This document shows positions 11,244 to 27,923 of a stretch of DNA of 64,000 nt, piece after piece. Origin of the DNA: Sialis fuliginosa (taxonomy: Eukaryota; Arthropoda; Insecta; Megaloptera; Sialidae). The stretch lies in assembly GCA_961205875.1 (NCBI GenBank), contig OY540816.1:14642701-14706700 (forward strand), in the 5' to 3' direction. The notes below the pieces were generated by a model. The model ran no database searches and was not told the DNA's origin. It worked only from the letters and a program-made list of their open reading frames with translations. Each line of letters begins with the position of its first letter. The stretch's first letter is position 1. The position numbers and the translations under genes were made by a program.

Positions 11244-11316
11244 TCAATGTTGTCGACCGTTGGTAACACTGTACGGCCTATCAGGTATCCGGGGAGGAAT
11301 ATTTGGCACAGGACGG
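11244..11316 (-). CDS. shi: Distal alternative C-terminal exon of dynamin (proline-rich tail)
   Basis: On minus, a good acceptor (TTTTTTACAG) is followed by a frame that joins in phase to dynamin exon 14 (which ends TC). The joined tail reads PLIPSRPVPNIPPRIPDRPY, then SVTNGRQH and a TGA stop (11244-11246). The PxxP and PSRP spacing matches the proline-rich SH3-binding domain of dynamins, and the patch is GC-rich in an AT-rich background. Using it would give a protein of about 871 residues and extend the gene 4.1 kb past the long-form stop. I infer alternative splicing; no transcript evidence is available here. Confidence 0.75.
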
Positions 11317-14300
11317 CTGTAAAAAACTTGAATTAGTAAATTGTTTTTATTAAAAATTATGTAATACATTTTAGATTCAAATTTCAATGGTATCATGCAA
11401 TACAAAGCAATCATGCCCTCACCTTAGAAATCAGGCACATCAACACTTTTATAAGTAGCTAGCTATATAAAAATAAATTATTTTCAAAATATAGAGTGTG
11501 AAATAAGTACATAAGAACACTCTATAATTTAAAAACAAGATACGTTCTGAAATTAAACAAACAATTATTATATTCACAACACTAATACGTTAGATTTTTA
11601 GGTACTAAATAAAATAATTTCAGAACAAATTGATAATTATTATAAAATTAATATATTATAGGTATATACCATGCGAAAATACAAAAAATTATATAAAATA
11701 AAAACTAAAACAAAATAAAAGAATATTATGATAATAATTAACTAAACCACCACCAAAATTGATAAAAATAATAACTAAAACCCCAATGTGTTAAATTATA
11801 AAAGCATTTAAAAGAAAAACAACTGTTAATGTTTCTATTTACATTTATGAACATTTGTCAATACATTTTTAATGTTCAATAATATTATATGAATTAATAT
11901 TAATTAATAGTTAATATACTTTTCAAACTATTCAATCATCAAATAAAGTAATATTGTTTAAATCAAATAACAAATTTTTAATAGAAAAAAAAACTTATTT
12001 TTTGTGACGCGTATTGTTAGAAAAAAATTAAATAGTTTAAAAAGTAAATAATCTAAATTTTACATTACCAATAAGGTAAATTTTAAACTGCAAATTATTT
12101 TCTCGAATTTAGACTCATTAAATAGAATGTATTTTTATTGGATTTTAAATGAGCCCTACCCAATTCACAGTTTCCATTTTAATTGCCGCGGTTTAGCATT
12201 ACAAATAAAAGCTAATATATTATACAACTGTCAGCAAAATATATATTATATGTATATATTATATTACTTTATTTTTTATAGTATTGGTTCATTTTATTAC
12301 TAATTTAAATTAGTTGAACTTAAAAATACCGTACATCTAAAATTATAAAACATTTTTTTTTTATCTTCCATAGCACGCAATAAATTAAAACAATTATTTT
12401 TCTTAACAGTATTTGAATTCAAATTTTAACTCAATAATTCCGTTATAAATTTTTACTTATGCAAATACATATTCAAAAATTGTAAATACCTGATGACTTC
12501 TTTTTAAAACATAATACAATATTTATATTATAAACTTATTACAGCACTTAGATTGTTTAAATTACAATCTAAATAACAAGTAAGGACTCCAAAATCAGAA
12601 AAAAAGTTTTTCATCCAAGATAAGTATATTTTAGAATAATAATAAATGCTGTTTTACGTTCAAAATATACAATTTATATAATAATATCTTATATAATTGA
12701 CTCGTCCTAATTAAAAAAGAAAACCAAAAAACACATATTTATGCATTAAGTATAGAATAAATACCGGTGTTCAAAATTTACATCCACTTTTTTCAAGTCA
12801 AGAAATCTTTCACGAAGTGACAATAATGTTTATGTATATTTTCGACACCGTGATATGCTCAAACAACATCGAAAAAATCTATCGCAATAACGCTACGCAA
12901 CTTTGCTAGCTACGTCTACGAAGTGCTACAAATATATCTGTTTATTTGGTGCTAGCTTTATGCTCATTATTACTATTAGTACTTGTTTTCTTTGGTTAAC
13001 GTAGCATAATAATTTTAAATCAGTGTACTCTTGATTATATGTGCATAATTTTTTTTTTACAGGTATCTATTTAATAGAAATTATGCACTATGAAAACATT
13101 AAAAAAAGTGGACACTGCATAATCATAATATTAATATTTTCCTGATTTTTCCAGTCTGATGATTCAGTTATAAAGCTGTTAAACATTTTACTTATAAAAA
13201 TGATACCGAAAACATTATAGTTTTAGTCGCAAACATAAATTTGAAAACAAGAGTACACTATATATATGATATACTGAAAATGTGAAACGTGTGTCCAAAT
13301 CATAATTATAAAATTGCTAAATAAAGAATTAATGGAATTCTTTTTGAACAGAAACGTCTAAAAAATATATTTTTTTAAATTATTACTTCATAACTCATTA
13401 AATTGTAAGCTTTATAATGAACCAAAAATCTTTTTTGGTTACACATAACATACACTACAATTTTTTTTTAAATGATACACCAAACAATCGAGAGTATTTT
13501 TGATTTTTTTTCTTCTTACCGATGGAAAATATTTATTTACAAAGCTTTTTACCTTACTTAACAATTGCAATTTATATAATCTACGTCATTTAGCAAAAAT
13601 CTTTTTTTTTTTTAAATAATGTTTTATATCTTTCTGGGGGAAATAAATTATCACCTATATTATCAACAATAACATTTATTAACAGTTAAATTATGTTATT
13701 CAACTATTTGCAAACCAACAATTTATTATATTACTCTATGTGCTTTCTTTTCGAACTCAATTGTCAAATAACACAACTTCTACTGTATTGCACTTTAATA
13801 GCAATGGGTATATGCAATTTATATAATACTATACATATAGACATCGAAAAAAGTTTTACAACCTTGGTTTCTCTAATCAGAAGACTTATTGCATGTGCAT
13901 TTTTATGCAGCACAGTTAAAACTTTTTAGTAATTAACAGCTATCATATTTAAATTCAACAATCAAATATATATAATATATACTGTTTATAAGTTCATAAG
14001 ACTCACACCGCTATAAAAAATATTATTGAAACATTACACACCCATTTAGAAACAAAATTATCAATAAAACGACGACCATATAAAAAATATCAGTTAATTT
14101 TTTTATAAACATTTAAATTAAATAACTAAATAAATCCAATCTTTTAATAGTACAGTAATTATGTGTTGCATGTTTCAATTATATTTATTATTTATATTGA
14201 TTATTAAAAAGCAACACCGTATTTTCCTAACACCAGATTCGAAACAAATTCTTCGTTAAATAACCTCTCAATCCGACATTTTGAAAACCGTCGCCATTTT

Positions 14301-15458: not shown

Positions 15459-24922
<9,464 letters not shown>

Positions 24923-25899: not shown

Positions 25900-27923
25900 C
25901 TAATTTTGTACCGATATAGATTTATTTGACAATTTAAGAGACAATAAACGGCGTTTCTCTTTCTGCTGTTGCCGCCACTGCAGCCATTTATCAACAGCAG
26001 GAATAGAACGATCGCCACGAGCTTCAAGTTGTTGATAATACGCTTCACGAATTATACGGAAAGCTTGAATTGTACTGTAAGGTAGTTGAGTAACAGGATC
26101 TAAATATTTTGCTGGCATTCTGAAACAAACAAATATGTATAACCTTTCGTCATTCACTATTTTTTTTGTATACTCATCTATGCTTAGCTAATGTAAATAT
26201 TTTTGTTTGATTATTATATTGTAATATTTAAGCCATTCAGATGCCAAAGTGATTGACTTGAATAAATAAATAGTTGAGCAAATCATTGTTAACTATAAGC
26301 ATAATCTCTACCTCTATAAAAGGAAGTTGTATTTTTCTACATGTTACAGAGGCTTACAGGTAAACTCGAAAACTACTGAACTGATTTTAATGTGATTTTC
26401 ACCAATAGTTAGATAATTTCTCAGAGCATGTTCTCAGCTATTAATATTTTATGAAAACCTAAGATTTAACATCAATGAATACTTATTTGAAATTTTTAAA
26501 AATGTAACCACTTTTTTATTAAAATTATTACCTCGTAACAGCACACAGTAATTTCGATGGTGGTTTCGGTATATCTTTCTTGAATATTTCATTAAATACA
26601 ACATCATGCGGATCATTTAAGAATGTAATAAATGTACGTTCACAATTTTCTTCAGGTTTTTTAATATCCTTTGTTATGGTTTCTTGTGCTTCAGAATCAG
26701 GTTTTTCTCTAAAATTATAGAAATTATTAATGAATTTTTATGAATAATAATTTCAAATAGACTTACATTTTAATTTGGATAGTTTCTGTCTTTTCTACTG
26801 GCTGTTTATCTTCTATTGGAACTTCAGATATGAGAGGCATTGTTGTTGAATGGTATCTAATTGTAGGTCCTTCATACACTTTTTTCACAACACGTCTTGT
26901 TTTCTTTTCATTTTCAAGCTTTTGATATTTTTCTACAATAAAAATTTATTAAAATCAGTGTTTCGCCTCACAATCAATAAAACAAAAAATCGAAACGATG
27001 AAAAAGTTATAAATAAATACATTTAAAATATACAGTTACGTTTGACACAGTTTAAGAAAAAATACCTAATGATTTTAAATTTTCTTCTTCCGTCAATTTT
27101 GCTTCTTCTAAAAGCTCCTCCTGCGTAGGCATTTCTTCTTCATCATAATGTCTCTTTTTTTTCTTCTTCTGTTCTTCATGGCGTAAACGTAGCCTTAATT
27201 GAGTAGCTGCTGATTTAGCAGCTGTTGATCGTCGAATAGATTTCCTTTCTGAAAAAAAATAAATAAAAAAAAATAGCATATAAAAATAATTTAAAAATTA
27301 CACAAAAAATATATACCCTGATTGCTGTGCAAATGCAACCTGTCTCTTGAACTCTTTTTCTTAATAATTTTTTGCTTCAAGGGTTTTTGTTTTTGCTTTT
27401 TTTGTTGAGTACCTACAGGTTCCTGAAATTATTTATTTTGATTAGTTTTTATTTATCATGGATTGCATGTTCATTTTGGATGCAGTATAAAAGTGACATA
27501 AGTCTGATTGCAGCACAAAACACAAAACTATAGATAGAGTACACCTAGAGTGAACCTACAATATCCGCCACTGTGTATAATCTGAAATAAAAGGTAATAA
27601 ATATACCTTATATGCTTTTGTTACAAGTCGTCGTTTCTTTTTAGGTCCTTCCTCTTCGTTATCAGAGACAGGTTCATCATTTTCATCAATACTAAAATCA
27701 GAATCCACTTCATCTTCTCCTTCATCTTCCTCACTAGAATAAAATTATTTAATTTAATAATTTTGAATAAAATCGGAATAAAACAAACATACACATAATC
27801 ATTATCTACAGCTTCATCTTCAAAACCTCCATAAGTGTTTTTATAAAATTCATCCTCTTCTTCCTCGTCTAATAACTTTGCCATGCGGTTTCCTGCATTG
27901 GAGCGTTTTTCTCTTTTTGCCAT
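25900..27923 (-). CDS. VPS72: YL-1 / vacuolar protein sorting-associated protein 72 homologue
   Basis: Histone H2A.Z chaperone subunit of the SWR1/SRCAP and Tip60-type chromatin complexes, nuclear. Seven exons: 27923-27793, 27733-27607, 27422-27317, 27248-27066, 26932-26767, 26708-26532 and 26119-25900, all in phase, 369 residues, close to the usual length. N-terminal part: MAKREKRSNAGNRMAKLLDE followed by a long acidic stretch (EEDEGEDEVDSDFSIDENDE), then KKKRRLVTKAYKEP, a lysine-rich region with IRRSTAAKSAATQLR, and VKKVYEGPTIRYHS. The C-terminal YL1_C domain reads MPAKYLDPVTQLPYSTIQAF and ends at about residue 369. Its 5' end lies only 142 bp from the 3' end of ISCA1, on the same strand. 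In flies the gene is called YL-1. Confidence 0.93.

Follow-up and report, generated by a model that had tools for sequence, protein, structure and literature searches.

A 73-bp patch (stop included) on the minus strand of the window is very probably an alternative last exon of the dynamin (shibire) gene of Sialis fuliginosa; from the anatomy of the sequence we put the probability of this reading at about 0.85. The window is the whole 64,000-nucleotide stretch of DNA that was analysed, and all positions given below are positions within it. The patch, called exon c here, possesses an acceptor, a frame that matches the shared donor and a stop of its own, and would give dynamin a proline-rich tail of 24 residues, counting the Ser at the junction. 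It would be the third candidate end of the protein, since two further terminal exons, a and b, fit the same donor. We consider it reasonably likely, though with less confidence, that exon c is both real and a source of additional SH3 docking. Existing annotation of the species may already include this exon.

The dynamin locus and three candidate terminal exons

The dynamin gene was rebuilt from the sequence with 14 shared coding exons, separated by 13 GT-AG introns that are all in phase (Table 1). In the rebuilt protein the Pfam models Dynamin_N, Dynamin_M, PH and GED all scored over their cut-offs, and dynamin-1 chains in the PDB aligned with residues 6-860 of the 871-residue protein. The GTPase, middle, PH and GED regions were found in that order and are followed by a proline-rich domain, as in a classical dynamin (shibire/DNM). 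Only one classical dynamin gene was found in the 392-Mb assembly. The other matches, on contig C2, show 37-58% identity and by their appearance are presumably a Drp1-type relative. Relatives of the GED exon (71 aa) were also sought elsewhere, and none of the 135 pattern-matching stretches in genome contigs, nor any of the 26 in viral contigs, was confirmed.

Table 1. Features of the dynamin gene and its candidate ends, in window coordinates (a slash marks a splice boundary)
Feature	Position	Strand	Basis
Coding exons 1-14, common to all isoforms: GTPase, middle, PH, GED and start of proline-rich domain	24922..16669	-	In-phase GT-AG exon model
Last of the shared exons (exon 14), with the end ...LPAPLIP + TC in phase 2 and the donor ATC/gtaagt	16822..16669	-	Exon model
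Candidate terminal exon a, SRR-stop	16511..16502 (10 bp)	-	Exon model
Candidate terminal exon b, FKFK tail, SRVGGGG...NAFKFK-stop	15585..15459	-	Exon model; alignment with the presumed sequence of the fly long tail
Candidate terminal exon c, SRPVPNIPPRIPDRPYSVTNGRQH-stop	11316..11244	-	Exon model, acceptor score, background and simulation, motif scan
Acceptor of exon c, with a branch-like TACTAAT whose first base lies 22 nt upstream, then a run of T and ACAG	11338..11317	-	Direct reading; score 7.8 bits

All three terminal exons fit the single donor of exon 14 in phase 2, and each begins with an Arg codon after a split Ser, which at the junction of exon 14 with exon c reads TC/C. The predicted isoforms a, b and c have 850, 889 and 871 residues, respectively, isoform a being 39 residues shorter than b. 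Tail b is rich in Gly, Gln and Ala and poor in proline. Exon a has a tandem acceptor, CAGGAG, and use of the second AG, 3 nt further on (16508), would give SR-stop. If the intron after exon 14 were retained (16669..16511, minus strand), the protein would end in IPS-stop and the SH3 motif at the junction would lose its closing Arg.

The coordinates, strand, phase and translation of exon c, as well as the presence of a good acceptor, agree with the initial annotation. That annotation had also placed the patch 4.1 kb beyond the usual stop, which is the distance from the FKFK stop at 15459 to the acceptor, and had extended the gene to about 13.7 kb, which is the span between the ATG (24922) and the distal stop. 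Its proposal of a distal dynamin terminal exon with SH3-type motifs is well supported by the anatomy of the sequence, but it does not mention exon a, and the candidate tails number three. A search for further hidden tails at phase-2 acceptor-like sites between 16660 and 9100 (acceptor score of at least 4 together with a tail of at least 6 residues, or a score of at least 5) brought out only b and c as coding-looking in our judgement; others stay open for 20-49 residues but are poor in Pro and show nothing else that suggests coding. The sequence of exon c was found once in the assembly.

Downstream of dynamin lies a BING4CT-domain gene (about 6798 to about 9150, ends taken from a reading of the frames; Pfam E 2.9e-31), which we take to be of the WDR46/UTP7 type. 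As this neighbour is on the plus strand and ends near 9.1 kb, the two genes converge, and a distal 3' UTR would have about 2 kb available. Signals of the AATAAA type abound across the region and do not discriminate in DNA this rich in AT. An exon with a YL1_C domain (VPS72/YL1 type; 25900..26187, Pfam E 4.3e-9) lies a short way upstream of the start of dynamin, also on the minus strand.

Several observations were made elsewhere in the genome. The carotenoid-desaturase model TIGR02734 had 11 matches, none of them over the cut-off, and the best of these has the look of what is presumably an LSD1-type protein. A cluster of TIGR02734 matches at G000:C13:8747243-8782469, all under the cut-off, includes two that we take to be amine/polyamine oxidases; the three matches read thus show no sign of a carotenoid desaturase of the aphid type. 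Of four contig ends that were read, three (L027, L028 and L029) carry TTAGG telomere arrays, which suggest an arthropod and probably an insect, and the fourth begins with N. The 3-kb stretch at L028 has TTAGG at its far end too, next to other sequence.

SH3-type motifs at the junction and in tail c

Class I and class II SH3 patterns were scanned with VILMPFWYA accepted at the hydrophobic positions, a match being a match of pattern and no measure of binding. Tail c contains one class I match (RPVPNIP) and two overlapping class II matches (VPNIPPR and PPRIPDR), whereas no class I or class II pattern was found in tails a and b by the same scan. The initial annotation had the FKFK-type tail give way to a different set of SH3-binding motifs. 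This does not hold; because the FKFK tail is without a class I or class II motif, tail c would add motifs and there is no exchange of sets.

The form xPx[IV]PxR occurs four times in the 871-residue isoform c: once in the shared region (816), once at the junction (843) and twice in tail c (851 and 855). The match at 843, APLIPS/R, spans the splice boundary; its Arg is supplied by each of the terminal exons, so that every isoform has the whole motif. Isoform c has IPSR, then IPPR, then IPDR in succession. When the residues of tail c were shuffled 200000 times, both extra IPxR motifs appeared together in 141 cases, for a pattern that was spotted post hoc. The shared region holds a motif of the same xPxIPxR class II type, APAIPNR, but in tail c two such motifs stand in overlap close behind the one at the junction. 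We considered whether tail c could derive from this APAIPNR stretch and rejected the idea, since the best match between tail c and the shared proline-rich region was not above shuffles (754/3000 tail shuffles, 904/3000 shared-region shuffles). The same result counts against the reading of c as a real exon with an SH3 role. A PDB search with tail c and 10 upstream residues returned one chance-level match, to a mitochondrial ribosomal protein (E 1.1).

We infer the transcription of exon c, its tissue, its partner and its effect from this anatomy. Where the pre-mRNA is not ended at a or b, the donor of exon 14 would be spliced to exon c, 5.35 kb downstream, to yield the 871-residue dynamin. Every tail would complete the class II SH3-type ligand at the junction. 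Tail a would stop there, tail b would add its proline-poor end and tail c would add motifs. The motifs of tail c would probably give the isoform a higher avidity for SH3-domain endocytic proteins, endophilin A first among them, and in this way change the place and speed of its recruitment to membrane necks. Amphiphysin, intersectin/Dap160 and syndapin are other candidate SH3 partners. An endophilin A-type BAR fragment is present in the same genome (best PDB match SH3GL3, E 4.5e-39), so that a plausible candidate partner exists.

Exon c could instead be real and expressed with a tail that is functionally neutral, what matters being its 3' UTR (through stability, localisation or distal polyadenylation) and not the SH3 motifs. 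Distal last exons frequently carry long 3' UTRs, and the 2 kb or so that are free before the end of the converging neighbour would accommodate one. We regard this as rather unlikely, given that the class I and class II matches are confined to tail c among the three tails and that shuffling of its residues, by a measure chosen after the fact, seldom produced the IPxR pair.

Exon c against decay and chance

Acceptors were scored with a matrix built from the 13 constitutive introns of the gene, each of these being left out in turn when its own score was taken. The score of exon c, 7.8 bits, exceeds 9 of the 13 leave-one-out values (-5.1 to 9.8), and the acceptors of tails a and b score lower, at 5.2 bits each. 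For comparison with the genome we used 20 arbitrarily placed 10-kb stretches, read on both strands with genes unmasked. Exon c has a GC content of 52% relative to 29% in this background, where 1.9% of 19860 windows of 73 bp were as rich. Its 24 codons have a log-likelihood of +7.9 bits by a codon table taken from the shared exons of the same gene, a value reached at 1847 of 397120 background positions (0.47%).

The acceptor of exon c is by itself not distinctive. Acceptors that score as high numbered 388 in the 400 kb of background strand, or about one per kb, and between 16660 and 9100 its score is equalled or exceeded by at least 14 further listed sites. Two stronger AGs lie about 145 nt upstream of it (11462 and 11458). 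These observations count against exon c, as does the path to it, which passes exons a and b and many AATAAA/ATTAAA sites, and the length of the intron that it would require, 5.35 kb, where no other coding intron exceeds 2.36 kb. The rarity lies in the combination of acceptor and proline-rich tail. With a threshold that was set post hoc, the tail having already been seen, at least six Pro in the first 25 tail residues were found behind none of the 388 equally strong background acceptors. Third-order simulation gave three such cases in 58 Mb of genome composition and none in 28 Mb of local composition, and predicts about 0.0004 of these acceptor and six-Pro tails in 7.4 kb. When the acceptor threshold was made very lax, six Pro were present in 8 of 10917 background tails and both SH3 classes in none of the 10917; the six-Pro threshold and the IPxR count both stem from inspection of the tail.

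A second alternative is that exon c served an ancestor as a genuine last exon but has since fallen wholly or largely out of use, too recently for its sequence to have been lost. Its location far past the other two terminal exons, beyond many poly(A)-like signals, would suit such a history. However, the 24-codon frame, the stop, the acceptor and the branch-like site all remain intact. The genome is AT-rich (29% GC), and an open run of 24 codons was seen at only 75847 of 397120 background positions. We judge a decayed exon to be improbable. That an acceptor-like site happens to precede an accidentally proline-rich open stretch of noncoding DNA is very unlikely; the abundance of acceptors of this strength would allow it, but the proline-rich tail behind one is too rare in both background and simulation.

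Comparison with mammalian and fly tails

The reading of exon c as a functional last exon can be set beside the C-terminal splice variants of mammalian dynamin-1, the dynamin of the brain. According to one report, Dyn1xA (long) and Dyn1xB (short) share one sequence as far as Pro844, the splice boundary falls at Ser845, and R846 together with a 20-residue extension gives Dyn1xA a second, stronger endophilin A1 site that is needed for ultrafast endocytosis, a process mediated by Dyn1xA and not by other variants (PMC11329700). Recruitment to the membrane is likewise reported to differ between short and long dynamin tails (PMC11094030). The candidate tails of Sialis diverge at the corresponding place in the proline-rich domain, LIP/S-R compared with the Pro/Ser-Arg of the mammalian case in the first report, and the alignment with the dynamin-1 PDB chain puts PSR on PSR at the boundary. 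The long tail of Dyn1xA brings extra PxxP motifs, again by the first report, and tail c adds class I and class II pattern matches.

The two systems also differ. There are three candidate tails here, all with Ser-Arg, whereas Dyn1xB is without Ser-Arg. Serines like the phospho-regulatory S851 and S857 are absent from tail c, which has one Ser past the junction (YSVT) and no Ser-Pro. When tail c, a very short sequence, was aligned with the Dyn1xA tail, 3056 of 5000 shuffles scored as high locally and 3589 of 5000 globally; no similarity was detectable, a further point against the reading of c as a real exon with an SH3 role. The Dyn2 tail, in its presumed sequence, gave 274 of 5000 locally and 1287 of 5000 globally, which is at best marginal. 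Common descent of tail c with vertebrate tails was considered and is unsupported, the alignments not beating shuffles, although the tail is too short for alignment to exclude descent in common with that of Dyn1xA. Because the tails do not align and Ser-Pro sites are lacking, our claim goes no further than that tail c probably works like Dyn1xA; descent from the same exon is not claimed.

Tails a and b probably correspond to the short and long C-termini of fly shibire. None of 5000 shuffles reached the score of tail b against what we take to be the sequence of the fly long tail, either locally or globally. The 'short' fly form is described as being without 49 C-terminal residues, and fly rescue experiments as employing six isoforms, a series of them 'short', in a Bactrocera paper (PMC10926519). 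In Sialis, isoform a is without 39 residues of b, compared with the 49 of that account. No description of a third insect dynamin tail was found in open-access text, such isoforms often being present in sequence databases alone. We know of no fly counterpart of tail c.

A more specific possibility, which we offer tentatively and think rather doubtful as a whole, is a three-way C-terminal switch in which each tail completes one SH3 motif at the junction and the distal tail alone multiplies it (IPSR-IPPR-IPDR). Tail c might then be an independently evolved counterpart of Dyn1xA, probably favoured in neurons, that would recruit endophilin-type proteins for fast synaptic endocytosis. To our knowledge a three-way switch of this kind has not been examined by fly genetics. 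Dynamin isoforms that differ in a short C-terminal tail alone are reported to behave differently at mammalian synapses (PMC11329700). If arthropods have a motif-multiplying distal tail at the corresponding junction, the switching of tails would be a means of adjusting vesicle fission that has come up more than once.
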